A stretch of 37,541 nucleotides of DNA from assembly GCA_902500715.1 (NCBI GenBank), contig CABVRO010000021.1:1-37541 (forward strand). The letters run 5' to 3'. Shown here piece after piece: positions 7,226 through 37,541 of this stretch. The notes below the pieces were generated by a model. It made no database searches, had not been told where the DNA came from, and saw nothing but the letters and a program-made list of their open reading frames with translations. The stretch comes from an uncultured Nitrospira sp. (lineage in GTDB: Bacteria; Nitrospirota; Nitrospiria; Nitrospirales; Nitrospiraceae). Made by a program: the position numbers and the translations under genes. Position 1 is the stretch's first letter. The number at the start of each line of letters is the position of its first letter.

Positions 7226-7254
7226 GTGGCTTCCCGAATTCAGGCGAAGCACAC

Positions 7255-9448: not shown

Positions 9449-9467
9449 CGATTCCTCCTTCGATCGG

Positions 9468-11771: not shown

Positions 11772-11782
11772 GGCTGTCTCCT

Positions 11783-12718: not shown

Positions 12719-12765
12719 CCCCTCTTTCCCTTGCACCGCCCCTCCTTGTGAAGAAACCATGAGGT

Positions 12766-16100: not shown

Positions 16101-16313
16101 GATTTCCAGGGGAAAGGTCACGAGGCGTTCGATTTCGGCAGGAGCAAGCGCGGGCATCTTGGTAATCACTTGGACCTGGACCGGCGTCACGTCGGGAAAG
16201 GCATCGATCGGCAGATGGCGGAACGCCGCCACGCCGCTCACGATCAGTCCGAGAACCGTAAGCAGCACGATGAGCCGTTGTGCGAGCGCGGTGCGGATCA
16301 GTCGTTCAATCAT
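13173..16313 (-). CDS. czcA: CzcA-like HME-RND metal efflux pump
   Basis: 1046-aa inner-membrane proton/metal antiporter, full family length. Duplicated RND architecture with TM1 near residues 12-30 (LIVLLTVLGLIVSGVAAF), a large periplasmic loop with PIDAFPDVTPVQV, TM4 motif GMIVDAAIVQVENVERHLSE near residue 405, and a second periplasmic loop with AMRVDELVSGVRSQVAIKLF. At the positions where CusA has its methionine triad this protein reads NMMRLPS, LSDMYV and VDELVSG, the last like the NELISGVRSDVAVK of CzcA, so a divalent substrate (Co, Zn, Cd, Ni) is more likely than Cu/Ag. It overlaps its fusion protein and the following lipoprotein by 4 nt each. Substrate is inferred. Confidence 0.9.
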   Translation of the reverse strand: MIERLIRTALAQRLIVLLTVLGLIVSGVAAFRHLPIDAFPDVTPVQVQVITKMPALAPAEIERLVTFPLEIEFTNLPGKKELRSVSRFGLSVITVVFEDKMNIYFARQLVLERMLEARSSLPPSAEPELGPVSTGLSEVFMYLVEGSTQTNLMELRTLQDWVIRPMLRAVPGLADVDTLGGLAKQYEVLVDPNRLTSFGLTLRQVHVAVVGNNQNAGGGYIEQGGDKLVVHGVGLARSATDLEQIVVAAHKGTPIYLRDVAQVRQGTAIRLGGVTRDGKGEVLEGIAVMLRGGNSREVVSAVKDKVELINRVLPSGVSVIPFYDRIELVARALDTVERALLEGIAVVILVLYLFLRNLRGALVVALTLPLAILATFLIMQQVGLSANLMSLGGLAISLGMIVDAAIVQVENVERHLSERTQGRTLVIAERLPVVLRAVLEVRKPSLFGELIIALTFVPLLTLRGMEGKMFIPLALTVVIALLSSLVLSMTVVPVLAAILMKPRAATEGGRLLDRVRRRYRQMLEGAIRRTRLIVLAAVGVLVGGAALVPFIGREFVPSMDEGTIVVNMMRLPSISLTESLKIAGDVERVLLEIPDVRSVVSRTGANELGTDPMGMELSDMYVLLKPTSEWQAPSKADIEEQVRHRMEQVPGIAFGLSQPIAMRVDELVSGVRSQVAIKLFGDDLETLRMKADEIAREVRQVRGMTDLRVEQVSGLYYLKLDIDRGKIARHGINVAEITEVIEAVGAGIAAGEVFEGQWRFPIRVRFPDAQRADVDTIAALWVTAPDGSRIPLRDLADIRIVEGPAQISREHASRRIVIEANVVGRDLVGAVEEAQTAVTRQVQLPPGYYVTWGGQFENQQQAMARLAVVVPLVIGLIFLLLFFTFGNLRQAALILLAIPFAMVGGLLGLMLGGLYLSVPASVGFIALFGVAVLNGVVKIAYINQLREQGMALDEAVLTGMVLRLRPVLMTAIVAMMALIPLLLATGPGSEIQRPLATVVIGGLFSSTVLTLVVLPVLYRWMEQRITQRRAVEAAVLTPASDREVAT

Positions 16314-18774: not shown

Positions 18775-18786
18775 GAGAACTCCCTC

Positions 18787-18810
18787 CATTGCCCGCATGC
18801 CTGGGCAATG
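18787..18810 (-). promoter_or_regulatory. Stem-loop immediately upstream of the operon-2 channel gene
   Basis: Perfect 8-bp inverted repeat CATTGCCC/GGGCAATG with an 8-nt loop, between the small secreted gene (ends 18855) and the channel gene, immediately upstream of its RBS. Operon 1 has a different hairpin in the same relative place. It could influence translation or mRNA stability at this junction. Confidence 0.45.
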
Positions 18811-18854
18811 CTTCGACTGTTGCTAAGTTATGAGAACAGCTAAGTTGCGAAGAG

Positions 18855-19166
18855 TCAGAGACTCAGGGGAGGGTGGAAAAGGAACTTGACGAAGGTCGGC
18901 ACATACAATGGAGAGTTCAGGATGACATCAACTGCAAACGGAGAGATGATGTCAGGAGCAGGAGGAGACACTGACTGGAACAGAAGATGGCAAGGACACC
19001 CATCATCTATCACGGCCCCATCGGGAGACGGAGAATCGTCCGTCATTTCGGCCTGAGCTGCGACGGGCCCGAGTGGCCACTCACCGAGGCAAGCGAAACC
19101 CGTGAGTTGGACTCCAAGCAAAAGAACCAGCCCGATGAGCGGTAAATGTGAATTCTGTCTTTTCAC
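18855..19166 (-). CDS. Small secreted Cys protein heading efflux operon 2 (CzcI-like position)
   Basis: About 103 aa from GTG at 19166 (TTG at 19172 also possible), with AGAGG nine bases upstream. Hydrophobic signal residues 8-28 (PLIGLVLLLGVQLTGFACLG) are followed by an acidic segment and DDGCPCHLLFQSVSPP, a C-P-C-H cluster that could bind metal, then a C-terminus ending FHPPLSL. It occupies the same leader position as 5284-5652 and 26337-26708. No family recognised; function probably regulatory or periplasmic metal-sensing by analogy to CzcI, untested. Confidence 0.6.
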   Translation of the reverse strand: MKRQNSHLPLIGLVLLLGVQLTGFACLGEWPLGPVAAQAEMTDDSPSPDGAVIDDGCPCHLLFQSVSPPAPDIISPFAVDVILNSPLYVPTFVKFLFHPPLSL

Positions 19167-19190
19167 CCGCAACTACCTCTTCCTGGTCAA

Positions 19191-19219
19191 AATATAGCAC
19201 GATCCTCGCAAAAAAACAG
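19191..19219 (-). promoter_or_regulatory. Candidate promoter of efflux operon 2
   Basis: Extended -10 TGCTATATT (-10 hexamer TATATT, 19196-19191) with a weak -35 CTGTTT 17 bp upstream (19219-19214). It lies 24 bp before the GTG start of the small secreted gene. The spacer includes a run of T's. Confidence 0.5.
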
Positions 19220-19420
19220 TACATTCGTTGGTGGCGAGTAACAGTTGGTTTCAAACCGGTGATCGGCGAGGCGATCCATTTCATGATCACGGCGCCGAGG
19301 TCCGCATGATAAAGCGAGCCTATGATCGTGTGGTGTTCCTGGTCATCTAACTGCGAACCCTCTGTCCTTTTCTTAAATTGCAAAATAATCCACCGAATCA
19401 AGAAGGGGTGGCTGAAGGGA

Positions 19421-19978
19421 TCAACTGCCCCTTCCGATGCAGGGTTCGTGATTAGGTATCAGCCCGCTGCCAAAGGCTAAATAGGGCCGACCAGAGACAG
19501 CCAATTCCTCTTCCAAGGGATATGGGGTATCACCTCCTAAACGGTTTACTCGGGATTCCCAATCCGGATGATCAAATTCATGGCTCCTACATTCGCTCTC
19601 CAGACAAAACGGACAGGGTAGGCAGCCATACCCTGTCGCATTCCCGATCACCGACCAGATCTTAGTCAGAAAGGCAAGTAAAGGAGCCTGATCCGCTCCT
19701 CCAAAGCCTGAATTTTGTTTTCCGTCCACTTCACCACATCGGAGCAAGATGTACCTTCCCTCTGAGCTGTATCGAACAGGCGTGCAATCTCAACCAGCGT
19801 GAACCCCCAAGCTCTTCGCTTTTTGGATGAATGTGACCCGTTGCACGGCTTCTGGTTTATAGAGACGATAGTTGCTGTAATTGCGATCTGGCCGCGGAAG
19901 TAGTCCCACGCTTTCCCAGTATCGCAAGGTTTTTGAGGAAACTCCGGTCCTTCTATTAAGTTGCAGAATGGTGAGCAT
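19421..19978 (-). pseudogene. MerR-family regulator, frameshifted
   Basis: From ATG at 19978 the frame encodes a clear MerR winged helix (LQLNRRTGVSSKTLRYWESV, SNYRLYKPEA, FIQKAKSLG) but stops after GVHAG near 19790. Removing one G from the run of five at about 19808 restores LGFTLVEIARLFDTAQREG, then TSCSDVVKWTENKIQALEER to about 19680. A second change of frame there leads into LLAFLTKIWSVIGNATGYG and a cysteine cluster CLPCPFCLESEC before a stop at 19421. So two indels separate the parts. It follows the operon-3 pump gene on the same strand and was probably its regulator. Sequencing error in the G run cannot be excluded; the exact C-terminus is uncertain. Confidence 0.7.
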
Positions 19979-20054
19979 ATGTGATTCCATCCGAGTTCTT
20001 GGTTTGTAGGTTAGTCCAGTTGCAGGAAAGTGCAACCTTGCTCTACAGACCATT

Positions 20055-23000
20055 TCAAGGCTTTGGGTTCAACCAAAGAGCCCTGCCCCGCCACAAAGCA
20101 TACAGCACTGGTATCACCACCAGCGTCAGGATGGTTGAGCTCACCATGCCGCCGATCATCGGTGCGGCAATCCGTTTCATCACATCGGCGCCCGTGCCGG
20201 CGGTCCACATGATCGGGAGTAATCCCCCCATAATCGCGGCAACCGTCATCATTTTCGGGCGCACACGCTGGACGGCTCCTTCCATGATGGCTTCGCGCAA
20301 GTCATGAACCGTCACCATGCGGCCTTCGCGCACTCGCCGCTCACATGCTTCATCGAGATAGACGAGCATCACGACCCCCGTCTCTGCCGCCACACCGGCC
20401 AGCGCGATGATCCCCACCCAGACCGCCACACTGAGGTTGTAGCCTAGATAGTCGAGATACCAGATGGCCCCGATCGCGGCGAAGGGGACGGACAGCAAGA
20501 CGATCAGCGATTTCGCGAGCGAGCGGAAATTGAGGTACAGGAGCAAGAGGATCAAGGCCAGGGTCACGGGGACGACTAGCTTTAATCGCTCTTCGGCCCG
20601 CACCAGATGCTCGTATTGACCGGTCCAGATCAGCCGGTACCCAGGGGGTAATGTCACTCGGTCTCGGACCGCGCGTTGGGCATCTTCGACATAGCCGCGC
20701 AGGTCGCGTCCACTGACCGCGACCGACACCAGCCCGGCCAGCGCCCCGGCCTCATCCGCGATCGACGTCGGCCCCTGCGTGATGACGAGATCTGCAATTT
20801 GTCCGAGCGGAATCTGCGCACCGCTTGGCGTGGGGATCAGCACCCGCTTGAGTCGGTCTGGGTCATCGCGTAGTTCGCGCTTGTAGCGGACATTCACAGG
20901 ATACCGCTCCCGCCCCTCGACAGTGGTCGTCACGGTTTCTCCCCCGATGGCCGAGGTGATCACCGCTTGCACATCCCCCACCGTCAGACCATAGCGGGCC
21001 GCTTCGCGTCGGTTGACGGTCAGGTCCAGGTAATATCCTTCGTTGAGCCGTTCCGCGAAGGCGCTCTTGGTGCCTGGCACGCTCGCCAAGACCTGCTCGA
21101 TTTCCACTCCGATTCGCTCGATCGTCTTCAGATCCGGTCCCAGGACTTTGATCCCTACAGGACTCCGGACGCCGGTCGTGATCATTTCGGTGCGGGTCTG
21201 GATCGGCATCCACCAGATGTTCGGAAAGCCGGGAATGCGCAGCTTGGCATCCATCTCATCCAATAACCGGTCCCAGGTCAGGCCGGCGCGCCATTGCGCT
21301 TCCGGTTTCAGGGTGACTGTGATCTCGGCCATTCCCACGAAGGCTGGATCGGTGGCCGTCGGGGCCTTCCCCATCTTGCCGAACACCCGTTCCACTTCCG
21401 GGAAAGTCATGAGCAACTGGTCCTGGACCTGCAACACCTTGGCCGCTTCGGGGATCGAAAGGCCAGGCACGGTGGTCGGCATGTAAAGGATCGTCCCCTC
21501 GTTCAGCGGAGGCATGAACTCCGCCCCCAGGCGCATGAACACCGGCACCGTGAGCCCGACCGCCGCCACCGCCAGCGCCAGCGTCAGCCAGCGAACGCGC
21601 AGTACGCCTGAAAGGATGGGCCGGTACAGCGCGATCAGCAGCCAGTTCAACGGATTCCTGGTTTCCGCCCGGATGCGCCCCCGGATCAGGAGGACCATCA
21701 GCACAGGAGCTAACGTTACCGACAGCGCGGTGGCAGAGAGCATCGCAAATGTCTTGGTATACGCCAACGGTGTAAACAGTCGGCCCTCCTGTGATTCCAG
21801 TGCAAAGATCGGCAGGAACGACACGGCGATCACCAGCAGCGAGAAGAACAAGGGACGGCCGACTTCTTTGGCCGCTGCAATGATGGTCTCGATCCTGTCC
21901 GAATGGGGATGTTGTTCCAACCGCTTGTGCGCGTTCTCCACCATCACAATGGCGGCATCGACCATCGCGCCGATGGCAATGGCAATCCCTCCGAGCGACA
22001 TGATGTTGGACGTGATCTTCAAGTAGGCCATCGGAATGAACGCGAGGAGTACGGCCACGGGCAGAATGAGGATGGCCACGCATGCACTGCGGAGGTGAAA
22101 CAGGAAGACCAGCGCGACCAGGCTGACGATGACACTCTCCTCCAACAGCTTCTCGCGGAGCACGGCGATGGCCCGATGAATGAGATCAGACCGGTCATAC
22201 GTGGGAATAATGCGCACACCGTGAGGCAGGGCTGGTGTGATTTCTGCCAGCCGTGCTTTGATTCGTTCGATCACGGCGAGCGCGTTCTCTCCGGCCCGCA
22301 TAATCACGATACCGCCGACCGTCTGGCCCTTGCCGTCCAACTCGGCGATGCCCCGACGCTGGTCTGGCCCGACGTGGACATGGGCAATGTCCCGGATCAA
22401 GATGGGCGAGCCACGACCATCTGTCCCGACGGGGATCAGCTCAATATCCTCAATCGATCGCAGGTAACCTCGCCCTCGAATCACGTATTCCGTGCCGGCC
22501 ATTTCTAAGACACGGCCGCTCACCTCCGCATTACTGTTCCGGACCGCTTCAATGATCGTCTTGATCGGTAATCGGTAGGCGGCCAACGTGTTCGGGTCCA
22601 CTTCGATTTGATACTGCTTGACGAACCCGCCGACCGCCGACACTTCTGCCACGCCGGGCACACTTTCTAGTTGGTAGCGCAGGGACCAATCCTGAAGGCT
22701 GCGGAGCTGCGCCAGGTCGTGTGCGCCAGACTCATCGACCAGTGCATACTGATACACCCACCCGACGCCGGTCGCGTCAGGGCTTAGAGTCGGTGTGACT
22801 CCGGAGGGCAACTTCCCGGTCAACTTCTGCAGATATTCCAGCACACGACTTCTTGCCCAGTACAAGTCCGTCCGATCTTCGAAGATCACGTACACGTAGG
22901 AGACCCCGTATTCCGAGACCCCCCGCACTCGTTTGACTCTCGGCCCGGCAAGCAGAGACGTGACGATCGGATACGTGACCTGGTCTTCCATCAACGTGGG

Positions 23001-23171
23001 GCTGCGCCCCTGCCACTCGGTGTAGATGATCACCTGGACATCGGACAGATCCGGGATCGCATCCAGCGGAACCTGAAATACCGCCCAGGCCCCCCAGGCT
23101 GTCAGCATCAACACACAAAGGATGACCAGGATTGGATTGCGGGCGCTTCCTTCAATGAGTCGCGCGATCAT
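20055..23171 (-). CDS. cusA: CusA-like HME-RND Cu/Ag efflux pump
   Basis: 1038-aa inner-membrane pump, complete. N-terminus MIARLIEGSARNPILVILCV (TM1), PLDAIPDLSDVQVI, TM4 motif GAMVDAAIVMVENAHKRLEQ around residue 405, and C-terminal TM segment ending TLVVIPVLYALWRG. The three methionines that line the CusA metal path are in matching contexts: LYMPTTVPG (~570), FVGMAEI (~620) and RTEMITTGVRSP (~670). It starts six bases after its fusion-protein gene. It resembles the operon-1 pump closely by eye, suggesting paralogy by duplication or separate acquisition. Confidence 0.92.
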   Translation of the reverse strand: MIARLIEGSARNPILVILCVLMLTAWGAWAVFQVPLDAIPDLSDVQVIIYTEWQGRSPTLMEDQVTYPIVTSLLAGPRVKRVRGVSEYGVSYVYVIFEDRTDLYWARSRVLEYLQKLTGKLPSGVTPTLSPDATGVGWVYQYALVDESGAHDLAQLRSLQDWSLRYQLESVPGVAEVSAVGGFVKQYQIEVDPNTLAAYRLPIKTIIEAVRNSNAEVSGRVLEMAGTEYVIRGRGYLRSIEDIELIPVGTDGRGSPILIRDIAHVHVGPDQRRGIAELDGKGQTVGGIVIMRAGENALAVIERIKARLAEITPALPHGVRIIPTYDRSDLIHRAIAVLREKLLEESVIVSLVALVFLFHLRSACVAILILPVAVLLAFIPMAYLKITSNIMSLGGIAIAIGAMVDAAIVMVENAHKRLEQHPHSDRIETIIAAAKEVGRPLFFSLLVIAVSFLPIFALESQEGRLFTPLAYTKTFAMLSATALSVTLAPVLMVLLIRGRIRAETRNPLNWLLIALYRPILSGVLRVRWLTLALAVAAVGLTVPVFMRLGAEFMPPLNEGTILYMPTTVPGLSIPEAAKVLQVQDQLLMTFPEVERVFGKMGKAPTATDPAFVGMAEITVTLKPEAQWRAGLTWDRLLDEMDAKLRIPGFPNIWWMPIQTRTEMITTGVRSPVGIKVLGPDLKTIERIGVEIEQVLASVPGTKSAFAERLNEGYYLDLTVNRREAARYGLTVGDVQAVITSAIGGETVTTTVEGRERYPVNVRYKRELRDDPDRLKRVLIPTPSGAQIPLGQIADLVITQGPTSIADEAGALAGLVSVAVSGRDLRGYVEDAQRAVRDRVTLPPGYRLIWTGQYEHLVRAEERLKLVVPVTLALILLLLYLNFRSLAKSLIVLLSVPFAAIGAIWYLDYLGYNLSVAVWVGIIALAGVAAETGVVMLVYLDEACERRVREGRMVTVHDLREAIMEGAVQRVRPKMMTVAAIMGGLLPIMWTAGTGADVMKRIAAPMIGGMVSSTILTLVVIPVLYALWRGRALWLNPKP

Positions 23172-23177
23172 GATCGA

Positions 23178-24863
23178 TTACAGGCCTCCCCCGACGACCG
23201 AGAACTGAAACTTTTCGGCAATGGGGGGTCGCCCTGGGACCGTCAGGTTGACCGTCACCATCCAGGTGCCGCCCATGCCGAACCTCACCGTCCCTTCGTA
23301 GAACCCGTCCTTGGTGTGGCGAGCCGGCGCCTTGGAATCGGTCATGCCCGGCATCGGCATGGTATAGACAAAGACGACCTGCGCATTCGTCACCGGCTTG
23401 CCGGCCTGATCCCTCACGTTAAGCCGAAGTAGCACGTCACCGGCCTTGGGGTTTTCCGGCACCGTTGCGAGGGAGAGAGTGAATCCGTCCATCTGACGAG
23501 TCTCAGCCACTGTCATCCCGTTCTTGCTCCCCATCTCCATGCCCGGCATATCTTCCATCTTGCCCTCATGGGCGCCGCGCATCTGCCAATCGGCCATGCC
23601 GATCCGACCCATCATGGCCTGCATGCTCGACGCCGAGGCCAACTTGCTCTCTGCGTCCAACAAGAAATTGGCTGAGGTCACGATCCGATCTCCTTCCTTG
23701 AGTCCTTCCAGCACCTCCACAGAGTCCTGACTCCGACGCCCCAACTTGACCGACGCCGGCTCATAACGGCCTTGCCCCCGATCCATGAACACGAGTTGGC
23801 GGAGCCCAGTCTCCAGGACCGCTTCCTTTGGCACCACTAAGGTGTGGATCGCATCCGTGTGCAAGGTCACGTTCCCGTACATGCCGGGCTTCAGTTTCAG
23901 CCCAGGATTCGGCAATTCCACCCGCACGCGCGCCGTACGGGTGTCGGTATTCAACGACGGGTAAATGTACGACACGTTGCCGCGAAAGGTTGTTCCTGGA
24001 TAGGCGGCGAACGTCACTAAAGCCGGCTGATTGAGCCTTACCGCCGCGACCTCGGATTCATAAATGTCGGCAGAGATCCAGACCGTGGAGAGATCCGCTA
24101 CCTCATACAGTGTCGTGCCTGGTTCCACATATTTCCCAGGCAAGGCTTCTCGCTTCAGGACGATCCCGGAGGACGGGGCATAGACCGTGAGCTCCGGCGT
24201 GGCTGTCCCTCGACGCTCCAGCGTGGCAATTTGCAGATCGGTCACGTCCCACAAGTGCAGGCGCTCCCGCGCACTCGCCACGAGGGACGCCGCGTTGGCT
24301 GTGACCTCAGCGAGCGGACTCGCAGCCAGTTGGCCCTGCATTTTCACGGCGAGAAGATACTCGTCTTGCGTGGCCAGGAGGTCCGGTGAGTAGAGGGTGA
24401 AGAGGGGTTCGCCTTTGCGTACGGGGCGACCGATCGAATCGACGAAGACCTCTCGCACCCACCCGGAGATTTTCATTGTGACCTGAGTTAAGCCACGTTC
24501 GTCATAGCCGACCGTGCCGACGGCGCGAATCTCTTGCCCCAAGGACGCGTAGGTGACCGGGGCACTCCGGACTCCGATCAACTGTCTCATCACAGCCGGA
24601 ACCACCACCGCCCCCGATGGCGCTCCGGACATGCCGGGCATCTCACCCGCCCGCCCCACGGGCGCTGAGGCGCCCGCTTCTCCCATGCGGCCCATGTCTT
24701 TCATGGGCATCGTGCCCTCCATCGGCATCCCTTTCATGTCCCTCTGCTTCAAGTCACCCGTCATCATTCTGTGAGCAGTGAAGAAGCCAACGGCGACTCC
24801 GGCGATCACAGCGCTCGCCACGACGCCAACTACGAAACTGTTTTTGAGTGTCTGCCGGTTCAT
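23178..24863 (-). CDS. cusB: CusB-like fusion protein with extra C-terminal YtkA-like domain
   Basis: 561 aa, about 150 longer than the operon-1 homologue. N-terminal anchor (residues ~9-30), then a Met-rich linker (MKGMPMEGTMPMKDMGRM and GEMPGMSG), lipoyl/barrel-sandwich GWVREVFVDSIGRPVRKGEP, the hairpin starting YSPDLLATQDEYLLAVK, beta-barrel and membrane-proximal domains to about residue 430. A second Met cluster (EDMPGMEMG) leads into an Ig-like domain from about residue 455 (GFTLSLATVPENPKAGDVLL, VFVYTMPMPGM, FGMGGTWMVTVNL) resembling the YtkA-like/FixH-like copper-associated fold. RBS GGAG precedes ATG. The appended domain may be a built-in metal chaperone module. Confidence 0.88.
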   Translation of the reverse strand: MNRQTLKNSFVVGVVASAVIAGVAVGFFTAHRMMTGDLKQRDMKGMPMEGTMPMKDMGRMGEAGASAPVGRAGEMPGMSGAPSGAVVVPAVMRQLIGVRSAPVTYASLGQEIRAVGTVGYDERGLTQVTMKISGWVREVFVDSIGRPVRKGEPLFTLYSPDLLATQDEYLLAVKMQGQLAASPLAEVTANAASLVASARERLHLWDVTDLQIATLERRGTATPELTVYAPSSGIVLKREALPGKYVEPGTTLYEVADLSTVWISADIYESEVAAVRLNQPALVTFAAYPGTTFRGNVSYIYPSLNTDTRTARVRVELPNPGLKLKPGMYGNVTLHTDAIHTLVVPKEAVLETGLRQLVFMDRGQGRYEPASVKLGRRSQDSVEVLEGLKEGDRIVTSANFLLDAESKLASASSMQAMMGRIGMADWQMRGAHEGKMEDMPGMEMGSKNGMTVAETRQMDGFTLSLATVPENPKAGDVLLRLNVRDQAGKPVTNAQVVFVYTMPMPGMTDSKAPARHTKDGFYEGTVRFGMGGTWMVTVNLTVPGRPPIAEKFQFSVVGGGL

Positions 24864-24887
24864 GAGGGTTTCTCCTTTAGGTCTGAA

Positions 24888-26177
24888 TTAGCTCTGGCGA
24901 TCGAGGTCGACCCCAACGACCTGCTCGAGTTCAGCCAGTCGATGCTGTCGGTCCACGAGGGCCTTGAAATACTCAAGCTGAAATCCTCGCCACGCCCGCT
25001 GGGTTTCAATCAGATCCAGAAACCCTGCTTTGCCCGCACGATACCCGACACGCGCCGCGTCCAGGCTTTGCTCGGCCTGTGGCAAGATGGTGGTGCGATA
25101 CAACGTGGCCACCTGATCAGTGGCCCGGAGCCTGGCCAGGAGATCTTTGACCTGAAACCGGGTCAGGTTTTCTAAGGTATGGTGTTGCGCCCGCGCGGCC
25201 GAAACCGCTGCCGCGGCCTCCTGTACGCCTGCGTCATACTTCGGTTTGGTCCAGAACGCGAAGGGGATGCTCATCGCCACGTAGGCGCCGAATCCGTCGT
25301 TGGCCTGAAAGTTCTGGAAGCGCTGGAACGCCACATTAAAATCCGGGTAATACTGCCGCTGGGCCAGGGCACGGGACTGCTCGTTCCGTTGCACGGCCAG
25401 CTCGGCGGCTTTGAGCTCCGGCCTGTCGTTCAGTGCGAGACGGTGGAGATCGTCGAGAGTTTTGTCGAGTGGGATCTGAGACGGCTCTTGAGGGATGCCC
25501 AAGGGTGAGGTGGAATCCCGATCCAGCAGGGTATTCAGCATCGCTTCGGCGGTCTCGCGACGCTGTTCCAGGACGGGAAGCTGCTGGAACAGCATGGACA
25601 GCTCGACCTGGGCTTTGAGGACATCGGCTTGGCTTCCCTTGCCCGTACGGAACTTCGCGGTCGTAATCTCTACGAATTGTCCGAGCAGCTCGACTTGTTC
25701 ATGATGAATCTGGATCGCCTTGTGTGTGAGGAACAGATCGTAGTAGGCCTGCTTGAGGCGGGCGACGAGCTCCCGTTCCTTTCCACGGACCGCCTGCTCG
25801 GTCATCTCGGCCGAACGACTCGCTACGTCGCCTTTGAGCGCGAGTTTGCCGGGAAAGGGGAGATTCTGCGAGAGACCGAAGATACTGTTCTGCGTCTGCG
25901 TGACGTTGAAGGTCTGGGGGACATTAAACAACGTGACGGACAGGGTGGGGTCATCCAATGACCGCGCCTGTGTAATCCGATTCGTGGCGGCTTCCCATTG
26001 TTTACGCGCCGCCGCAAGCTCAGGATTCCTGGCCAGGACCTCCTGAATCAATTCTGGCAACGCCAGTCTGTTACCGGGTAATGAGTTGGGGTCCTGTGCC
26101 TTCGATAGTCCGCTGCTGAAACACAGTACCAGCACCGACGCAACCGCCACACACTGACGTCGTTTATTCTGTCTCAT
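24888..26177 (-). CDS. TolC-like outer-membrane efflux factor (CusC type)
   Basis: 429-aa outer-membrane channel of operon 3. Signal peptide residues ~8-28 (CVAVASVLVLCFSSGLSKAQ). OEP repeats are visible as ALPELIQEVLARNPELAAAR and, later, LHRLALNDRPELKAAELAVQ, with FGLSQNLPFPGKLALKG and QRQYYPDFNVAFQRF as in the operon-1 channel. RBS GGGAGG precedes ATG by eight bases. A 17-bp element shared with operon 1 ends 28 bp upstream of the start. It is 24 bp from the fusion-protein gene. Confidence 0.9.
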   Translation of the reverse strand: MRQNKRRQCVAVASVLVLCFSSGLSKAQDPNSLPGNRLALPELIQEVLARNPELAAARKQWEAATNRITQARSLDDPTLSVTLFNVPQTFNVTQTQNSIFGLSQNLPFPGKLALKGDVASRSAEMTEQAVRGKERELVARLKQAYYDLFLTHKAIQIHHEQVELLGQFVEITTAKFRTGKGSQADVLKAQVELSMLFQQLPVLEQRRETAEAMLNTLLDRDSTSPLGIPQEPSQIPLDKTLDDLHRLALNDRPELKAAELAVQRNEQSRALAQRQYYPDFNVAFQRFQNFQANDGFGAYVAMSIPFAFWTKPKYDAGVQEAAAAVSAARAQHHTLENLTRFQVKDLLARLRATDQVATLYRTTILPQAEQSLDAARVGYRAGKAGFLDLIETQRAWRGFQLEYFKALVDRQHRLAELEQVVGVDLDRQS

Positions 26178-28230: not shown

Positions 28231-28938
28231 CTAGCTGTACACACCGTGATCGATCCGACCGAGGATCATCCTGACCCGATCCGCACCAGCCTGGTCAGTC
28301 AAGAGACTTAGTGGCGTGCATCCTCCGAGTGCTCGGTTTGGCCGATTCAACCATGCGTGTGCCTTCTGCGCAGAGCCAAATGTCTTCCTAGTCAGCCGCG
28401 TTACTTCATCCGGATCGACCTCCACAAACGGCCTGCGCAGACTCAAGCGGCCCTTCAGACGGACTAGGTTACGGTCAAGCTGCCTATCGGCTTTCTTCAA
28501 TCGTGCCAGCTTGGCAGTACGGTCCTTGGCGGCATTAGGCTGACCCCGGCGGACGCCTTTGAGGGGGAAAAGTTCTTGTCCTCCCGATCCAGACGAGTTC
28601 CTCTCAGGATCGGGATCGAAGCGAATCTTGCCCTTCAACTTTCGGATACCAGTTTGTTTCTTGATCTGCCGATCCAATCCTATTCCACCAGAGTCAGAAA
28701 CACTGTCATCATGACCTCCAGACATCCATCGCTCTAGTTGCTCCATTCTTGCGTTGGACGCGTCACAAAAAGCGATTGCGGCCTCCAAGCTACGCTTCAT
28801 TCGTCGCTGTGCAGCTTGTAGCTGCTTCAACAGGTAAGACAGAGCCTCTGCAATCAGCTCGTCAGTAGTGGAGGGCTCGCCATATTTACGGTGGGCGGGA
28901 CGAAGTCTTTTAGCGTTGTTATTTGTCTTCTTGGCCAC
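28231..28938 (-). CDS. Protein with DUF2384 (MbcA/ParS/Xre-type) C-terminal domain, orphan antitoxin-like
   Basis: 235 aa from GTG at 28938 (MAKKTNNN), or 240 aa from GTG at 28953. The N-terminal half is charged and helical (LLKQLQAAQRRMKRSLEAAI) with a low-complexity middle. The last ~60 residues, TFGSAQKAHAWLNRPNRALG then TPLSLLTDQAGADRV and LGRIDHGVYS, match the toxin-binding domain of Xre/MbcA/ParS antitoxins that pair with RES-domain toxins. The usual Xre HTH is not evident, and no RES gene lies downstream (27600-28230 holds only remnants). It may be an orphan that lost its toxin, or a regulator. The long N-terminus is unusual for the family. Confidence 0.65.
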   Translation of the reverse strand: MAKKTNNNAKRLRPAHRKYGEPSTTDELIAEALSYLLKQLQAAQRRMKRSLEAAIAFCDASNARMEQLERWMSGGHDDSVSDSGGIGLDRQIKKQTGIRKLKGKIRFDPDPERNSSGSGGQELFPLKGVRRGQPNAAKDRTAKLARLKKADRQLDRNLVRLKGRLSLRRPFVEVDPDEVTRLTRKTFGSAQKAHAWLNRPNRALGGCTPLSLLTDQAGADRVRMILGRIDHGVYS

Positions 28939-29234
28939 GTCCGACCATACCACGATGAGATACCGCCATTACACAGAAGCTAGACCGCATTAAGAATGCG
29001 AAACCCCATTTCTGTGTCGTCGAAATCTAGTACCCCCATTTACTTAGCAAGATGCCAACTTTGGAGCGGCGAAACACTGCGCCAGGTATGGCGTTGCATT
29101 AGCGGTCTTTGCCCTCAGTAAAACCAGGCGTTAATAACCGCAATGGTTTCAGCTATTTGAAGGTTATGGGTTCCGAGTAAGCCAAAGAAATGGGAACAAG
29201 CTCACGAAACGTGCAGTCCTTGACTCCCCGTCGT

Positions 29235-29911: not shown

Positions 29912-30640
29912 CTAATAACCCCACGTTTCATCGGCTAACGGCGCGTGATTCAACTCATCTCGACGCATTCGCCAGTTCGGTAAAAACTGATCCATCAGAG
30001 TCGTAAATCGGTCATTGTGGTGCCGTTCAATCAGGTGAACCATCTCATGAACCACAATGTATTCAAGGCATTGGACTGGCTTCTTTGCGAGTTCCAAATT
30101 CAACCAAATTCGGCGTGCAGCGTCAGTGCAACTGCCCCACTTTGTTTTCATTCTTCTTATGCCCCAGCTCTCAACTCTCACGCCCATCTCGGCTTCCCAC
30201 TTCTCGACCAGGGGAGGGACCAATGCTTTAAGATTCTCACGGTACCAGGCAAGCAGGATCTGCTCACGCTGATCCTTGCTGGCACCTGTGGGAACCTGAA
30301 GCGCAAGAATCGTATTGCCTCTTCTGGAGACTCGCGAAGGACCTTCATGCTCGACGATATGCAGCAGATAGCGGCGACCGAGAAAATAGTGGCTCTCGCG
30401 CGACACATATTCGCGAGGTGATTGCCGCTCTTGCGTCTGGAACCGGCGGCGTTGGCGTTTGATCAACGCCAGCCTTGAGACAACAGCAAGGCGTACAGCT
30501 TCGTTCCCCACCCTCTTGGGAGCAGCCACCCGCACTCGGCCATTTGGCGGATAGACACCAAGATGAAGGTTCTTGATCCCCTTCCAGGCAATCTCTACCG
30601 GCAAACCGCCGACGGTGATTCGGCTCCGTTCAGTATTCAT
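29912..30640 (-). CDS. YgjP/M48-type zinc metallopeptidase
   Basis: About 242 aa from ATG at 30640 (MNTERSRITVGGLPVEI), preferred over ATG 30682 because it overlaps the hsdR stop by 11 bp and gives the usual family start. YgjP-like (DUF45) fold: N-terminal region IKNLHLGVYPPNGRVRVAAP, then RMKTKWGSC, and the zinc motif VVHEMVHLIERHHNDRF, an HExxH with a further downstream His. This family is commonly found immediately after hsdR in type I restriction loci, as here. Its substrate is unknown. The gene looks intact although the restriction genes upstream have been destroyed. Confidence 0.85.
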   Translation of the reverse strand: MNTERSRITVGGLPVEIAWKGIKNLHLGVYPPNGRVRVAAPKRVGNEAVRLAVVSRLALIKRQRRRFQTQERQSPREYVSRESHYFLGRRYLLHIVEHEGPSRVSRRGNTILALQVPTGASKDQREQILLAWYRENLKALVPPLVEKWEAEMGVRVESWGIRRMKTKWGSCTDAARRIWLNLELAKKPVQCLEYIVVHEMVHLIERHHNDRFTTLMDQFLPNWRMRRDELNHAPLADETWGY

Positions 30641-31200
30641 CTTGATTCTGAACCAATACGAGAACCCGATCGGCTCGATCATCTAACGACTCGGCCGATG
30701 GCGTGTGGTAAATCTCATGCCCCTCTACGGATAGGTCAGAACTCACATCTGAGGATGAGGCGCTGCCTTGGCCTTCAGCTTTTTCCAGAGCGGTCCTGAT
30801 CCCATTCCTCACCCTCTTTATCTTGAACTGATTACCTCGCCAATCATCTTGCCGACTGTCACGGACGGCAGCATCCACCGCGAGAGCCAGCGCTTCATTT
30901 TTGTTCAGATTGTCATACAGTGCTCGCTTGCCTGAGGTGTTCAAAGCCTTGGGATACGCCGCACCCGTCTCCGGGTTCGTCACCTGCTTGGTCAGCTCGA
31001 CGATCCGACGCAGGTATTCTTGGTAGCCCAACGCCTGTTCACGCCGCTGCTTGATCAACGCATCCAGCAGTTGAGACATCTTCTCGTAATACTTTGGGTT
31101 GATCGGTTGCTCGTCGATGATCAGCTTGCGGACGTTGTTCTCGATAGCTTCAGCCACAGCTTCTTTATTCTTGCGAATTCCAGCAGGAGACGTATTTCAT
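30630..31200 (-). pseudogene. hsdR: Type I restriction subunit HsdR, C-terminal remnant
   Basis: In the frame ending TGA at 30630 the sequence reads SPAGIRKNKEAVAEAIENNV, then KYYEKMSQLLDALIKQRREQ, the C-terminal helical domain of HsdR. About 185 codons remain of a protein normally near 1000 aa; the nuclease and helicase parts are gone. The frame has no proper start (GTG at 31157 only) and is preceded in the same frame by a TGA inside the hsdM fragment. The upstream end is a deletion junction with hsdM around 31190. Confidence 0.8.
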
Positions 31201-31443: not shown

Positions 31444-32793
31444 TTAAGCGGCTTTCCTTCCTAAAGCACTTTCTGTATCTCTTTCTAAGAATTGTCGAGG
31501 GCGAAGGCCTAATCGTTTTGCTTGACGTTTGACCGTTGCAAAACAAACCCCCAATTGAGTTTGCATGTCCTTGAATCCAATTGTCGGATCCATCCACAGC
31601 TCTCTTAGGCACTCCTCCCACCACTTTCCCCAGATCTTCACCCTTCCGATTCGGAAGGCACCTTCGGGTGCTTCGTCAGGACCTCGTCGTACGTACGTAA
31701 ATTGGCACGTCGCACAGGAGAAGAGTCCTAGTGGCGCACTGCCCTTCGCCGAACGAGACACCCGGCAGGTCTTAATTCGCAAATCCTTGTAATGATTTGT
31801 AGATGGATTCAGACAGGGCCAAGGCCCATTACCGAAAGGCAACGCCTCCCGCTCAAGAGACATAAATGCGGAAACTGAAAAGCCCAACCACTGAATAACT
31901 AGGAGATGTTGTAACGGATGTGCTTGTTCGATTCGGCTCTTATGAAACATCCGTATTGCCCAGTTATTACGATCTGGAGGACCAAGATCGCATCCAATGT
32001 GGCCTAACACCTCTCGCGAGTAATATTTGCTCAGTTCTGCAACAATACGGGATCTGCGCAAACGGCCAGCCCAGGTAGCAAACTGTCGTTCTTGGAGTAG
32101 AGATAAGTACCTTCTCCTCAGCTCCAGAGTGTTGACCCCGGTACACGACGTACTTAATAACCATTCACAATCTCGGGCAATTCTGAGAATGGTTTCGTGA
32201 TCTCTTTTATCGCGAATTGATCTGGGCAGCCTGGTTCGTAGACGAATTCCCTCCTCCGCCGTCACCAACCTTTGCCACTTACCTAGTACGCGCGCTGGAA
32301 TGGTGGTGTCCTCTAACCTTGTCGCATGCACTGCACAGATATTTACGCCAGGCAACTGATGAAGCCGATGCCAGTATCGAAATCCTACTTTCTGACGATC
32401 TCCCTGTGAACATTCAGGGCAGTATCGCAGCCATTGCGGCAACTTTACATGACTTGCATGAAGACCAGCCGAAGGCTCTGCCTTACTTTTAGAGGCATAC
32501 CGCATAGACCTGCGAAGATTAAGGATCCTTCTTGGCGACCAAAAGCACCCATAGAATGGAAGTAGCGTATGTTGGTTGATTAGAGTCTCAACGGACAAGT
32601 CATGATGAGGTGGAAGAACACGATCAATGTGATCTAAACGACTGGGAAGAACTGTCAGATTCACAGGATTTACTGATCCAGTAAGCTCGCGGATCAATTT
32701 TACCTGACTGGGGTACTGAACCCGATCCCCATACCGCGCGAATAGGCTATACAGAGTTTCATCGGGCTGAGGCTCAACAAAAAATCCAAGCAA
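31444..32793 (-). CDS. tnsD: TnsD-like TniQ family target-selection protein
   Basis: 449-aa TniQ-domain protein that, in Tn7-like systems, recognises the attachment site and recruits TnsC. N-terminus FVEPQPDETLYSLFARYGDR is the TniQ signature. A zinc site C125-x2-C128 (YCPECSQ) and C153-x2-H156 (CAVH) frames YWHRLHQLPGVNI. The C-terminal part contains FSCATCQFTY, a possible second zinc ribbon, and a helix-turn-helix DMQTQLGVCFATVKRQAKRL. It is 30 bp after the short TniQ gene and last in the tns operon. Target sequence unknown. Confidence 0.88.
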   Translation of the reverse strand: MLGFFVEPQPDETLYSLFARYGDRVQYPSQVKLIRELTGSVNPVNLTVLPSRLDHIDRVLPPHHDLSVETLINQHTLLPFYGCFWSPRRILNLRRSMRYASKSKAEPSAGLHASHVKLPQWLRYCPECSQGDRQKVGFRYWHRLHQLPGVNICAVHATRLEDTTIPARVLGKWQRLVTAEEGIRLRTRLPRSIRDKRDHETILRIARDCEWLLSTSCTGVNTLELRRRYLSLLQERQFATWAGRLRRSRIVAELSKYYSREVLGHIGCDLGPPDRNNWAIRMFHKSRIEQAHPLQHLLVIQWLGFSVSAFMSLEREALPFGNGPWPCLNPSTNHYKDLRIKTCRVSRSAKGSAPLGLFSCATCQFTYVRRGPDEAPEGAFRIGRVKIWGKWWEECLRELWMDPTIGFKDMQTQLGVCFATVKRQAKRLGLRPRQFLERDTESALGRKAA

Positions 32794-32823
32794 TTTTCAC
32801 CACCCCGCAGTGTTGCTAGCCTC

Positions 32824-33717
32824 CTAAGGCACTGGAATTTGCAAATACCGCATCATGACGAGGTGGTCTAATGGGTGGTAGATATGGCCAGCCGCTATTT
32901 GTTTTATCCACGGTCCCACACCTTTCGAATGCGAATCGAACGACAACCGTTGAAGCACGGAGGGTGAAAGCCTGTTGATAAAGCCGTCGGCTGCTTTCTC
33001 TGTTAAAAGCCGCCCCTTTCTTAATACTCTCATCGCCTCAAGTTGAACTCTGTACTGCTGCCTGAGCAAAAAGAGCGACAGATGTATATTGTCTTCCAAA
33101 ATCCTTCGCGCATCATTTGCCAGCTCTACTAGGATCCTGTCAGGCTTGGAATCATTGCCAGCAGGTATCGGACTTCGTTGGATCTCATACTTAGCCCGCA
33201 TCAGACACGCACCATGCATTGTCACTTTCGTTGGACGAAGAAATTCGCCATGTTTCGTGCAAACTAGCACACCGGGCAGCTGATGATTCCGATGCCAGTA
33301 CGGTTCTCCATATAGCACTTCATCTTCCAAGGCACATTTGAGGCAGAAGCGGAGGAGTTCCACACATCGCTTCCGATATTGAATCATGCCCACCGCTTTA
33401 TAAATAACGGTCGATGGCGCTTCGCCAATCTGTCTTTCTAGTTGCGCTACTCGCTCAGCCGAATGCAGACTGACATAGAAGGGAAACAGCGTGTGTTTAT
33501 AAAGTATCTCTTGCGGTGAATAAGATCCCTGACTTGGCAGCTGCCCTACCAAATGATTCAGATGACCAGGAACATCGTAAGCAACCCGACTACAGCCGGC
33601 GCCAAACAATTCCCGCACCGCTGTATGTTGAGTTGGATACTCCAGCCGATCTGTATATCTCGCACAGGCACTTGCTAACAGTTCATCTGGATAAAGCTCT
33701 GGAAACCATCCGAGCAT
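32824..33717 (-). CDS. tniQ: Short TniQ family protein (second target selector)
   Basis: 297-aa TniQ protein. Start PELYPDELLASACARYTDR is the TniQ motif. Zinc ligands C125/C128 (FCLKCA) and C153/H156 (CTKH) are at exactly the same residue numbers as in the following TnsD-like protein, and YWHRNHQLPGV parallels YWHRLHQLPGV, so the pair arose by duplication or shared origin. It ends at HPLDHLVMMRYLQIPVP, aligned with HPLQHLLVIQWLGFSVS of the longer protein, and lacks its C-terminal DNA-binding part. Short TniQ proteins serve as adaptors to other target-finders in some Tn7-like elements; no such partner is visible here. Confidence 0.85.
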   Translation of the reverse strand: MLGWFPELYPDELLASACARYTDRLEYPTQHTAVRELFGAGCSRVAYDVPGHLNHLVGQLPSQGSYSPQEILYKHTLFPFYVSLHSAERVAQLERQIGEAPSTVIYKAVGMIQYRKRCVELLRFCLKCALEDEVLYGEPYWHRNHQLPGVLVCTKHGEFLRPTKVTMHGACLMRAKYEIQRSPIPAGNDSKPDRILVELANDARRILEDNIHLSLFLLRQQYRVQLEAMRVLRKGRLLTEKAADGFINRLSPSVLQRLSFDSHSKGVGPWIKQIAAGHIYHPLDHLVMMRYLQIPVP

Positions 33718-33738: not shown

Positions 33739-35088
33739 TTAGGCCGCCTTCTTCTTAGTGGCTTTCGTTTTGAGAGGCTTTTGTCCGGCCTTTGTACTCG
33801 ATGCTTTTAACTGATCCGACTTTCTGATTTCTCGGGTCATAAACTCCTCGAGATCAATTGGAAGAGCATCTTCCATGGACAATAAAGCGTGTCTATCTTT
33901 CTTCCGTAGGGCGTCGAGAAATGGTTCCGCTTGTCTTAGCAGATCACGAGCCACTGAGCGAATGATCGGAGGGGTAATGCGCTCCTGTCCCACCCCGATA
34001 GCTCTGACCTGCGCCGCCGCAAAGATTTTCACAACATAATCCGTGATCCCTTGAGTGACATCATAAAGTGCTTCTCTCAACGCAGGAGATAACTTTACCG
34101 GATGCTTCACATATTGATATTCGAACAGTGCTTCAGCAAGAAAGTTGAAGTCACTGCTATTTGACAACCAGTTGTCCCAAATAAGTTCTCCTTCCGTGCC
34201 TCCTGCTCTTCGTATATGAAGCATGTGCTTTTGAAGAACCGTCATCGCACTGTAGGTCCCGACTATTACAACTGGAATACCTATGGTGTTGACCAGCTGA
34301 ACCAAGAAATTAAGGAGACGATCCCTCCCCCCACTTTTCGCCGCACTAACAAACTGAATTTCATCGATCACAAGAAGACCCAATGCTTGCTCTTTCGCAA
34401 CGAACGCCATACCTCGACCAAGTTCCTCAGCAGTCGCGCCGCTAAAATTGTCATCGTATTTTGTCCCTATGAGCTCATCGATTTGGCCAAAAAAGTTCTT
34501 ACACAACTCCTTCAACGAAGCGCCATCAGAAGGGCATGACAGAATGAGCCATGGTACTTGTTTGAGCAGCAGTCGACGGTCTTTATATTTTTCATGCTCA
34601 ATAACTTGTGGATATAGTCCCTGCAGGATGGCCGCAAGAGATGTCGTTTTCCCCATCCCAGACATGCCGATAAGCGCAAAACCGAGTGGCGCTGTCTGTA
34701 AGGAAGGCGATTCCTTCACACCAGGCTTAAAATGCTTTAATCGTTCTTCGGCGGCGATCAGGTCCTCAAAACGACCAAATGGATTTCGCAAAACATACCC
34801 TGTTCGGATGCTTTGGGAGAGTCGTCGTGTCAATCCAAAATGTGGTGATAACGGCTGGAACAGGGATCGAACTTGTGGTGCAATCATGCTCAATCGCTTT
34901 TCTTTAGGCCAGCGATGGATACCCTTAGGCAGCACAGGCTTGAAACTCAAATATTCAGCAATTTGATCATTATCGTATTCCGGCGGCAACGCTTCGATTA
35001 ATGGGTTGCCGTCAAATTCAGGATTCCCCGTTTTACGATAATTTGCCGAACATTTCTGCCCACGATTAAATCCACTGTGACTAGCCAT
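33739..35088 (-). CDS. tnsC: TnsC AAA+ ATPase, transposition regulator
   Basis: 449-aa AAA+ ATPase that links the target selector to the transposase. Walker A GMSGMGKTT (residues 141-149, Lys147), Walker B LGLLVIDEIQ (Asp242-Glu243), and sensor-1-like VVIVGTYSAM follow in order. The N-terminal ~120 residues are specific to TnsC-type proteins, and the C-terminus is lysine-rich (TKATKKKAA pattern), perhaps contacting DNA. ATG directly abuts the tnsB stop (TGA-ATG), so translation is coupled. 21 bp separate it from the short tniQ gene. Confidence 0.92.
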   Translation of the reverse strand: MASHSGFNRGQKCSANYRKTGNPEFDGNPLIEALPPEYDNDQIAEYLSFKPVLPKGIHRWPKEKRLSMIAPQVRSLFQPLSPHFGLTRRLSQSIRTGYVLRNPFGRFEDLIAAEERLKHFKPGVKESPSLQTAPLGFALIGMSGMGKTTSLAAILQGLYPQVIEHEKYKDRRLLLKQVPWLILSCPSDGASLKELCKNFFGQIDELIGTKYDDNFSGATAEELGRGMAFVAKEQALGLLVIDEIQFVSAAKSGGRDRLLNFLVQLVNTIGIPVVIVGTYSAMTVLQKHMLHIRRAGGTEGELIWDNWLSNSSDFNFLAEALFEYQYVKHPVKLSPALREALYDVTQGITDYVVKIFAAAQVRAIGVGQERITPPIIRSVARDLLRQAEPFLDALRKKDRHALLSMEDALPIDLEEFMTREIRKSDQLKASSTKAGQKPLKTKATKKKAA

Positions 35089-37293
35089 TCATTTCCTCCT
35101 GAATGCTTTTGCGATCACATCTGACAAATCTGGATCATCAATATGTTCAGTATCAGCGCCTGATTCTTCCTCTTTCGCCCGTGGCCTTTTCCGATCAAGC
35201 CGCTCTTCAGCAATACGATTTTCCCTAATTCCCTTCGTTCTTGCTGACCTTGATTCGTTCACCTGTGCTTTGGCTGTCTCTCCCGTGGCTTTGGCGATGA
35301 TATCGTCGAATGCTGCTCTGGACTCAGCGAGGCGTTGTTCTCGCTTAGGCCGCGCACGTTCACTGTCCTGTTTCTTAAACTCGAAATAGTCCAGCACGTC
35401 GTCCCAGTGACGATCGGCAAAGGCGCTATGGCGTTCAAGCAGATAGCATCGTTCCAAGCGACCGTTAGGTAGTCGGGCGAACACAGTATTGGTATTTTCT
35501 TCATTAAAGTTGACTCGGATGGCAGAAGAACCTTTGACTCTCGCCTTATCAAACCATCTTCCCTTGATAGCTGCCGGACAGCTATAGGAAAGTCCATGAA
35601 CAATAATGCCACTGGCTGTAACACGCGCCTCAGCACTTGGCAGTAGGTTGGCCATGATGCCGGGAGAGACTTCTCGCACGTGGCTACGATTCCGTATTCC
35701 CCAATGCCAGAGGTCAACAGGATAAGGCGGCACGTTGTCCTCGATCATGAACTCGTCATACGGGTAATTTTTTATTGGATGCACATTGTTGTGTTGATAA
35801 AAGAGATGAGCAAACAATTGCCTACACTCAAGCAAATTCAATTTGGCGTCCAGCCGGTAATCCACGCCCATTAGTTTTCTTTCTTCACGGACGGCTCCCG
35901 GCGCCCAATGCAATCCACGCTCATCCATTAATTTAAATTGGCGTTCTACTAGCCCTTTCCAATCCGCACGATAGGACGCGGTGTTATCCATTCGAATGTT
36001 AAGCCCATTCACAAGATCGTCGGAGGCGTAACTCAAGTATTCTTTGCCGCGGTCTGCACAAATGCTCTCCGGCAAGAAATGGCAAGGCCATTCCTTCTCA
36101 GTCATCGGCATGGACAACCCGATAGACTTGCAGTACTCAGTTTTATCCTCAGCAGCATTTCTGAGTGCTGCTATCGCGCCTCGCCACGAGGCAGGCCTAA
36201 GGCCAATATAGAAGCCAACAATCAGTCGACTGAACACATCAATCACAACGTAGATGATCGGGCGACCAATAATATGCCCACGGTTCAGCTGGCTTACGAG
36301 ATATATGTCTGCAACAGTCGAATCGATTTGGAAGCACGATCCTGGTCCGAAGGCTTGCTTGGTGGGACTCCCAATCATTCCTCTATACTTTAGATTCACA
36401 ATCCGCTGGCCTTTCCTCTTGGGCAGATCGGTCAACCAGCGATCATTGTGGTTATACCAGTAGCGCGCCTGTCCTTTCGTTGGACGCTCCGCTGGCGGTA
36501 GTAACATTGGAACAAGCACGCGGCTTTGCAGTCGATAGGATCCGGCATTGAAATACTGCTCGGTCAGTTTTCTGAATGCTTCTGCGAAGGATATCCCCTT
36601 GTGCTTAGCAAATATTTTTCGAAGCCCTCGCAATACTTTATCTCTCATTTCAATTGTCATATTTGGCCCAGTCGCCTCTTTTGTAGCTTTGCTCAGATCA
36701 CTGGGCCGCCCTCTTTTGACGCACTTTCCTTTTCTCTCTTCCTTGTCTGATCGAAGTCTTGTTTTCCCTTTACCGCCGCATCGGTCAAATAGTGGCAGAA
36801 ATGCATTCTTGACCTGCCCCGTTTGCCACCAGCGATGCAAGTATTTATAGATTACAGGCTTCGTCCACTCGTGTTTTTCAATTATGCGATCGACTATCTT
36901 GCCACGCTTTTCTCGATTCAGGATTTTGAGCCCTTGCACATACTGTCCCAATACCTCCCAAACCTCGTCCCGTTTGGTCCGATGTTCTTTTGATAGCTCC
37001 GCTTCCTTCCATAAAAGACGAGGAACAGGGGTTCCGGTATCATTACCATCTATATTGTCGTTGGATGGGCTTAGACTGTATGGATCTTCTGGGACAATTT
37101 GGGCCGCACCGTTTTCGATGGAGTCCTTAAGAATCTGCGCCTCAGTGTCGTAAGGCATACCGATGGCCTTTTTACTATTAACCGGTATTGGGTACATTGA
37201 GGCCCAATTTCTATCGAAATCGATGTGGAGCACGCGCTCCAGTCGAGCGTCTTCTCCAATCCACTGAATGAGCGAGTTCTTGCTGATACGCAT
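35089..37293 (-). CDS. tnsB: TnsB DDE transposase
   Basis: 734-aa transposase that binds the transposon ends and joins them to target DNA. N-terminal DNA-binding region (HTH around EWTKPVIYKYLHRWWQTGQ) precedes an RNase-H-like rve domain: Asp324 in FQIDSTVADIY, Asp414 in ICADRGKEYLS and Glu450 in WKGLVERQFK form the DDE triad. A beta-barrel and a charged C-terminal tail (residues ~650-734) follow, the tail expected to contact TnsC. The ATG at 37293 shares its A with the stop of tnsA (TAATG). Length fits the family (Tn7 TnsB is about 700 aa). No disruption seen. Confidence 0.93.
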   Translation of the reverse strand: MRISKNSLIQWIGEDARLERVLHIDFDRNWASMYPIPVNSKKAIGMPYDTEAQILKDSIENGAAQIVPEDPYSLSPSNDNIDGNDTGTPVPRLLWKEAELSKEHRTKRDEVWEVLGQYVQGLKILNREKRGKIVDRIIEKHEWTKPVIYKYLHRWWQTGQVKNAFLPLFDRCGGKGKTRLRSDKEERKGKCVKRGRPSDLSKATKEATGPNMTIEMRDKVLRGLRKIFAKHKGISFAEAFRKLTEQYFNAGSYRLQSRVLVPMLLPPAERPTKGQARYWYNHNDRWLTDLPKRKGQRIVNLKYRGMIGSPTKQAFGPGSCFQIDSTVADIYLVSQLNRGHIIGRPIIYVVIDVFSRLIVGFYIGLRPASWRGAIAALRNAAEDKTEYCKSIGLSMPMTEKEWPCHFLPESICADRGKEYLSYASDDLVNGLNIRMDNTASYRADWKGLVERQFKLMDERGLHWAPGAVREERKLMGVDYRLDAKLNLLECRQLFAHLFYQHNNVHPIKNYPYDEFMIEDNVPPYPVDLWHWGIRNRSHVREVSPGIMANLLPSAEARVTASGIIVHGLSYSCPAAIKGRWFDKARVKGSSAIRVNFNEENTNTVFARLPNGRLERCYLLERHSAFADRHWDDVLDYFEFKKQDSERARPKREQRLAESRAAFDDIIAKATGETAKAQVNESRSARTKGIRENRIAEERLDRKRPRAKEEESGADTEHIDDPDLSDVIAKAFRRK

Positions 37294-37541
37294 TAGGCAG
37301 CACTCAACTTCTTTATGAGGGGTATCTCAGCTGAGGAGGTCAGAGACAGAGGAAGTCGGGGGTTATATCTTTTTGTCAGATCTACAGGCCACTCCTGGTT
37401 ACCGATTAAATGACGTGACACCTTTAAGCACGTTCCCACCCGATACCCAAGCCTACAATCAAGATCAGAACACAACTCAGCAAGACTCTCCTCCGCCCCA
37501 CGATTTCCTTGGACACTCCATTGGGGCATACTGCCCCCTGA
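37293..37541 (-). CDS. tnsA: TnsA-like endonuclease, C-terminal part (5' end beyond window)
   Basis: The frame is open to the right edge. The visible 82 or so residues include EESLAELCSDLDCRLGYRVG, then VSRHLIGNQEWPVDL, which fits the winged-helix C-terminal domain of TnsA that contacts TnsC. The catalytic N-terminal nuclease domain is outside the window. The one-base stop/start overlap with tnsB and the order tnsA-tnsB-tnsC are as in Tn7. Assignment rests mainly on position plus the C-terminal pattern. Confidence 0.72.
   Translation of the reverse strand, partial: SGGSMPQWSVQGNRGAEESLAELCSDLDCRLGYRVGTCLKVSRHLIGNQEWPVDLTKRYNPRLPLSLTSSAEIPLIKKLSAA

Follow-up and report, generated by a model that had tools for sequence, protein, structure and literature searches.

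A Tn7-like element at the nrdJ stop codon of Nitrospira that encodes a short TniQ beside a TnsD-type protein and no visible CRISPR machinery

INTRODUCTION

Tn7-like elements that encode two TniQ/TnsD proteins are a kind already known. A survey of such elements counted 998 dual TniQ-TnsD loci, which are polyphyletic and mostly pair one protein of >400 amino acids (aa) with a smaller one, and noted numerous short TniQs that have no identifiable partner (Faure 2023, PMC10293859). Short TniQs act as adaptors in CRISPR-associated transposons (CASTs) and in Tn6022, and a short TniQ in a dual locus has been taken as the hallmark of an additional selector (PMC10293859). That a short TniQ works with a partner of another kind, the main idea of the earlier note, has likewise been proposed as a general hypothesis (Faure 2023, PMC10293859). 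Tn7-like elements are also known from Nitrospirae (PMC8649781).

Here we describe a dual element from an uncultured Nitrospira sp. The window analyzed, 37,541 nucleotides, is the whole of contig C21 of a 241-contig draft genome (G000). The dual elements without Cascade (Faure 2023, PMC10293859) resemble it most closely, having tnsABC, a small TniQ and a TnsD of >400 aa in tandem, no cas genes, and no identified partner; the window element differs in that it homes to the nrdJ stop codon and in that the nearest pairs seen all belong to the Nitrospiraceae and branch by themselves in the TniQ tree. Type I-B1 CASTs (AvCAST-like; Nostoc carneum, L176, and FACHB-63, L088) share the order tnsB-tnsC-short TniQ-...-TnsD and a TniQ of ~300 aa with the same endpoint, but they carry Cas6/8/7/5 between TniQ and TnsD, which the window element does not, and the TniQ clades differ. 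The N. carneum CAST adjoins a glmS-like gene. Escherichia coli Tn7 likewise has TnsABC, a TnsD that directs insertion to a conserved gene's 3' end, a 5-bp duplication, and TGTGG-type ends, whereas the window element has two TniQs, no TnsE that could be found, nrdJ rather than glmS as its site, and a shorter TnsD tail. Tn6022, with its short TniQ and TnsF, is the published example of a short TniQ adaptor for a separate DNA-binding selector; unlike Tn6022, the window operon contains no TnsF-like gene and does encode a TnsD. The new contributions are complete elements, a homing site at nrdJ that appears to be unreported, and a clean case, free of CRISPR, in which the role of a lone short TniQ can be tested.

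RESULTS AND DISCUSSION

Organization of the tns operon

The features of the window and of the adjoining contig C44 are listed below; G020 is a genome of the same genus that consists of a single complete contig.

1..26177, minus strand: heavy-metal efflux cargo (Cus/Czc-type RND systems, P-type ATPase, cation efflux protein, MerR regulator)
28231..28953, minus strand: Xre/MbcA/ParS C-terminal domain protein (Pfam, 3.4e-15)
29912..30682, minus strand: YgjP-like metallopeptidase, cargo (Pfam, 3.8e-59)
30630..31157, minus strand: C-terminal remnant of HsdR (type I restriction), cargo (PADLOC REase_I, 8.4e-42, profile positions 889-1013)
31444..32793, minus strand: long TniQ, a TnsD-type protein of 449 aa with a TTG start; core, zinc ribbon, and helix-turn-helix (HTH) (Pfam TnsD, 4e-53)
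32824..33717, minus strand: short TniQ of 297 aa; TniQ/TnsD core only (Pfam TniQ, 1.3e-20)
33739..35088, minus strand: tnsC, AAA+ regulator (AAA_22/TniB Pfam match; 66% identity to G020 TnsC)
35089..37293, minus strand: tnsB transposase (70% identity to G020 TnsB)
37296..37541, minus strand: C-terminal part of tnsA, cut by the contig edge (Pfam TnsA_C, 2.3e-5)
L021:9424-10129, at the end of contig C44: N-terminal part of tnsA (TnsA_N profile match)

The tnsB, tnsC, short TniQ, and TnsD-type genes form a single minus-strand operon, in which both TniQ open reading frames (ORFs) lie directly downstream of tnsC and are separated from each other by 30 bp. The order equals that of type I-B CASTs minus the cas block. 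TnsB is 35 to 38% identical to TnsB of other Tn7-like loci; it has no Pfam match at 1e-3, and NCBIfam provides no name for any of the Tn7 proteins here. The tnsA gene is present but divided between contigs C21 and C44, both of which are spanned by the G020 TnsA, and an absence of tnsA was rejected once the N-terminal part had been located on C44. With tnsA split at the contig joint, the locus thus holds in one operon the tnsA, tnsB, tnsC, and TniQ/TnsD genes by which Tn7-like elements are recognized. The tnsA reading frame is broken at this joint (L021:10058-10129; window 37498-37541), and the inverted repeat CACGATTTC(C)TTGGACAC stands at both contig ends; an insertion sequence has probably entered tnsA in this genome.

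Extent of the element and its insertion site

Both ends of the element, whose recovery the earlier note had proposed, were mapped on two other contigs. CusA runs past window position 1 into contig C125, the contig ends overlapping exactly by 55 bp; this overlap places the window cargo inside the element, and its assignment to host DNA was rejected. The right end lies at C44:20490 and the left end, located by pattern search, at C125:8668, both flanked by the target duplication CATAG, so that the element runs from C44 through the whole window into C125 and measures ~50.8 kb by summed contigs (~51 kb). The window is entirely internal to this one Tn7-like element. The termini are TGTGGAGA, with TnsB-type repeats. 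On C44, TGTGGAGAAAAATAAAGTCATTAAC overlies the stop codon of the B12-dependent ribonucleotide reductase gene nrdJ, identified from its sequence, and is followed by two further repeats at 20-bp spacing; the usual nrdJ terminator stands after the left end on C125.

Insertions at the nrdJ stop codon were found in this genome, G020, and G035, and a degraded right end was found in G029. The G020 element occupies 423877-468967 (LE 423877, RE 468967; 45.1 kb) of its complete genome and is flanked by the duplication CTACG; its tnsA is intact. Identities to the window proteins are 66% for TnsA, 70% for TnsB, 66% for TnsC, 56% for TnsD, and 49% for the short TniQ, and its TniQ pair measures 296 and 460 aa. 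The G035 element, of 14 kb, has the same ends and the duplication CGTAA and carries a CBASS effector and copper efflux genes; it contains no tns genes and therefore looks nonautonomous. TGT...ACA ends, arrayed TnsB-type repeats, and a 5-bp duplication are thus present in three elements (CATAG, CTACG, and CGTAA). These ends, together with the tns genes, bear out the description of the locus in the earlier note as a Tn7-like element with a TnsD-like long protein and a short TniQ.

The 3' region of nrdJ was matched in 27 of the 29 genomes of the genus, 4 of which have an element-type end. Because such ends stand at the same position across these genomes, the nrdJ stop codon is the fixed target of the element; the earlier note had associated a fixed site with the TnsD of known type I-B CASTs, and a chromosomal site of this kind, with 5-bp duplications, was indeed found. 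From its family, TnsD is inferred to be the recognizer of the nrdJ site. Neither nrdJ nor ribonucleotide reductase was found as a target of Tn7-like elements or TniQ in the open literature searched, and the site appears to be unreported so far. As nrdJ is widely conserved, its recognition by TnsD would add one more defined homing site for Tn7-like elements.

In two genomes without an element, G028 and G022 (L034 and L050), TGTGGAGAAA(A/G)AT directly follows the nrdJ stop codon, in the 13 bases next to it, and resembles the right end of the element; it may be native or may be left over from an element since lost. Sister dual-TniQ elements of two other genomes begin just 3' of a response-regulator gene (L028:4880-5100; L026:17335-17480), and this sister group seems to have a different fixed site there.

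Searches for guide machinery and TnsE

The earlier note had seen no guide machinery in the window, and this observation stands: no CRISPR-like repeats were found in the window, in C125, or in the C44 part, no Rfam match was found in the window, and no Cas-type Pfam match was obtained among the ORFs scanned. Nor was there a Pfam match to TnsE, a fast-evolving protein, in the subset of ORFs scanned. The earlier note had suggested that cas genes might lie elsewhere in the element, and this was not borne out: a type I cas locus turned up neither in the element nor in this genome or G020. Cas5 is absent from both genomes by a model that does find the type I-B CAST of N. carneum, and Cas1 is absent from this genome, which is 93.5% complete, so that its absence is not absolute. 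Queries with Cas6, Cas8, Cas7, and Cas5 of the N. carneum CAST (tblastn) had no match in the window, C44, C125, or the G020 element, and the same queries do recover CASTs among other fetched loci. Cas5 and these direct queries were used in place of PF01905, whose Cas7 result carries little weight because the profile misses Cas7 of genuine type I-B CASTs. The locus therefore fits the non-CAST dual TniQ-TnsD elements, with a smaller TniQ beside a TnsD of >400 aa and no Cascade.

The two TniQ proteins

Pfam TniQ matches the long protein at 1.1e-23 and the short one at 1.3e-20, and the Pfam TnsD match to the short TniQ (1.6e-5) is below the cutoff. The two cores are ~30% identical. As the earlier note had read from the sequence, zinc ligands occupy matching positions in both: C125, C128, C153, and H156 are invariant, in the same numbering, and are found in every aligned relative. 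Its second reading, that the short TniQ stops where the DNA-binding C terminus of the long protein starts, also agrees with the alignments; the short ORF extends no further than the TniQ/TnsD core (HPLxHLxMMRxL), and only the long protein continues with a zinc ribbon and HTH.

The AlphaFold2 model of the short TniQ has a complete, confident fold (mean pLDDT 91.6, pTM 0.90). It matches E. coli TnsD(1-318), the TnsD fragment whose structure was solved bound to TnsC (8glw), with Z 26.4 over 291 residues (rmsd 3.1 A); the match to the type I-B CAST TniQ 8fcu is clearly below this score (Z 11.7, 231 residues), and matches to type V-K TniQs reach Z 8 to 9. In the model of the long protein, the core fold also matches TnsD(1-318), and residues 386-430 of the tail resemble the DNA-binding domain of GcrA (Z 6.9 over 44 residues).

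The short TniQ has kept its length (297 aa in the window, 296 aa in G020) at 49% amino acid identity. Differences between the two genes at codon positions 1, 2, and 3 are 0.40, 0.27, and 0.61, and the short TniQ is, judging from this excess at the third position, under purifying selection. It is given without a dN/dS figure because synonymous sites were saturated in 3 of the 4 genes analyzed with YN00. The conserved length, the codon-position bias, the zinc ligands, and the confident fold disfavor a truncated nonfunctional copy, one of the outcomes that the earlier note had named as refuting its reading.

Phylogeny and distribution of dual TniQ loci

In a tree of 56 TniQ cores, whose deep branches are weakly supported, the short TniQs of the window and G020 are sisters (100/100). 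Next to this pair stands the full-length TnsD of a Chloroflexota MAG (L113, 638 aa; 99/95), a neighbor that was kept once most of the long-branched rows had been removed; with a full-length sister, the short form probably originated through tail loss. The phylogeny that the earlier note had called for thus places the short TniQ outside the TniQs of type I-B CASTs, which form a separate clade (100/100). Grouping the window protein with them was rejected by the AU test, modestly (p 0.032), and an in situ duplication of the window pair was not rejected (p 0.143).

Six of the 175 genomes of the family have such TniQ proteins, each with two side by side. The pair lengths are 297+449, 296+460, 266+599, 265+604, 378+597, 696+585, and 644+632 aa; the protein adjoining tnsC is highly variable in length, and in N. 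moscoviensis and G053 this paralogue retains a long C terminus. A scan of genome contigs with the short TniQ alone gave no match, whereas an alignment-based query gave matches. The close pair of the window type occurs in only two genomes, this one and G020. Outside the family, 79 named loci mostly have one TnsD of ~630 aa, with roughly a dozen tandems.

Possible roles of the short TniQ

We propose, with about an even chance of being right, that TnsD homes to nrdJ and that the short TniQ serves as the adaptor of a second, non-CRISPR target selector. The C-terminal zinc ribbon and HTH of the long TnsD would bind nrdJ at its 3' end, and the protein would recruit TnsC for homing, a half of the proposal that derives from the site data and family knowledge. 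The short TniQ, by analogy with CASTs and Tn6022 and less surely, would be a TnsC-binding adaptor without a DNA-binding domain of its own; its full-length match to TnsD(1-318), its purifying selection, and the CAST-like gene order agree with this role. In the second pathway, it would bring TnsC to DNA held by another protein, not CRISPR, which may be encoded by the host, a plasmid, or the element. Against this second pathway, no insertion of the family away from nrdJ was confirmed in 29 genomes of the genus. No uncharacterized gene is operonic with the short TniQ as a candidate partner, and the only non-tns genes common to the window and G020 elements are two small ORFs near the right end and the MbcA/ParS-domain gene. 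Relatives of the latter are present in every Nitrospira dual-TniQ element examined (L028:12994-13530; L027:6453-6989; L024:4806-5039). They follow tnsD by 18 to 19 bp in three sister elements and lie near it in others; the window gene is 2.5 kb from tnsD, and the G020 gene is ~1 kb in from the left end. It is conceivable, if doubtful, that the short TniQ ties TnsC to a new non-CRISPR selector, possibly this Xre/MbcA/ParS-domain protein, which may equally be an antitoxin or regulator.

The short TniQ might instead form a mixed pair with TnsD that loads TnsC at nrdJ, one member contacting DNA and its partner TnsC alone. In E. coli Tn7, the complex has two TnsD per TnsC ring (8glw, 7:2:1 by title), the short gene adjoins the long one throughout the Nitrospira elements, both cores fold like TnsD(1-318), and every element for which both ends were found sits at nrdJ. 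We nevertheless regard this as somewhat unlikely: the two cores share only about 30% identity, E. coli Tn7 and most of its relatives manage with one TnsD, and a pure bridging subunit would have no need of the long C terminus of the tnsC-adjacent paralogue in N. moscoviensis and G053. A restraining role, in which the short TniQ occupies TnsC and competes with or modulates TnsD homing, has a precedent in a type I-D CAST, where TniQ sharply lowers TnsD homing and TnsD lowers the TniQ pathway (PMC10293859); the TniQ of that system has a positive role too, and such a role is unlikely here.

A short TniQ that is a TnsD duplicate, truncated and in decay, would agree with its full-length sister in the tree (L113) and with the AU result for in situ duplication, but the 297 and 296 aa kept at 49% identity, the intact zinc ligands, the purifying codon bias, and the pLDDT make decay very improbable. 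Scarcely credible is a type I-B CAST that has lost its cas genes: the gene order without the cas block and the structural match to 8fcu would suit it, but the CAST TniQs form their separate clade, a joint clade was rejected, and no Cas5, Cas1, or CAST Cas homologue was found. To return to the adaptor proposal, the complete elements, the exact site, and the minimal set of tnsABC, short TniQ, and TnsD make a lone short TniQ testable without CRISPR.

Cargo

The cargo of the window element comprises defense and metal-resistance genes. A CBASS lies between the right end and tnsA in both full elements (L021:6168-9230; L023:3911-8423), and the kinds differ, with an HNH-SAVED effector, cyclase, and E2 in one and a phospholipase effector, cyclase, E1-E2, and JAB in the other. 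An ORF of 58 to 63 aa encoding a zinc ribbon just inside the right end (L021:5579-5770) is 76% identical in G020 and decayed in G035 and G029; it bears a weak likeness to phage Com proteins. The G020 element also carries genes for a LexA-like S24 peptidase, an ImuB/DinB-like protein, and a DnaE-like protein (L024:10115-14905), a mutagenesis cassette as cargo.
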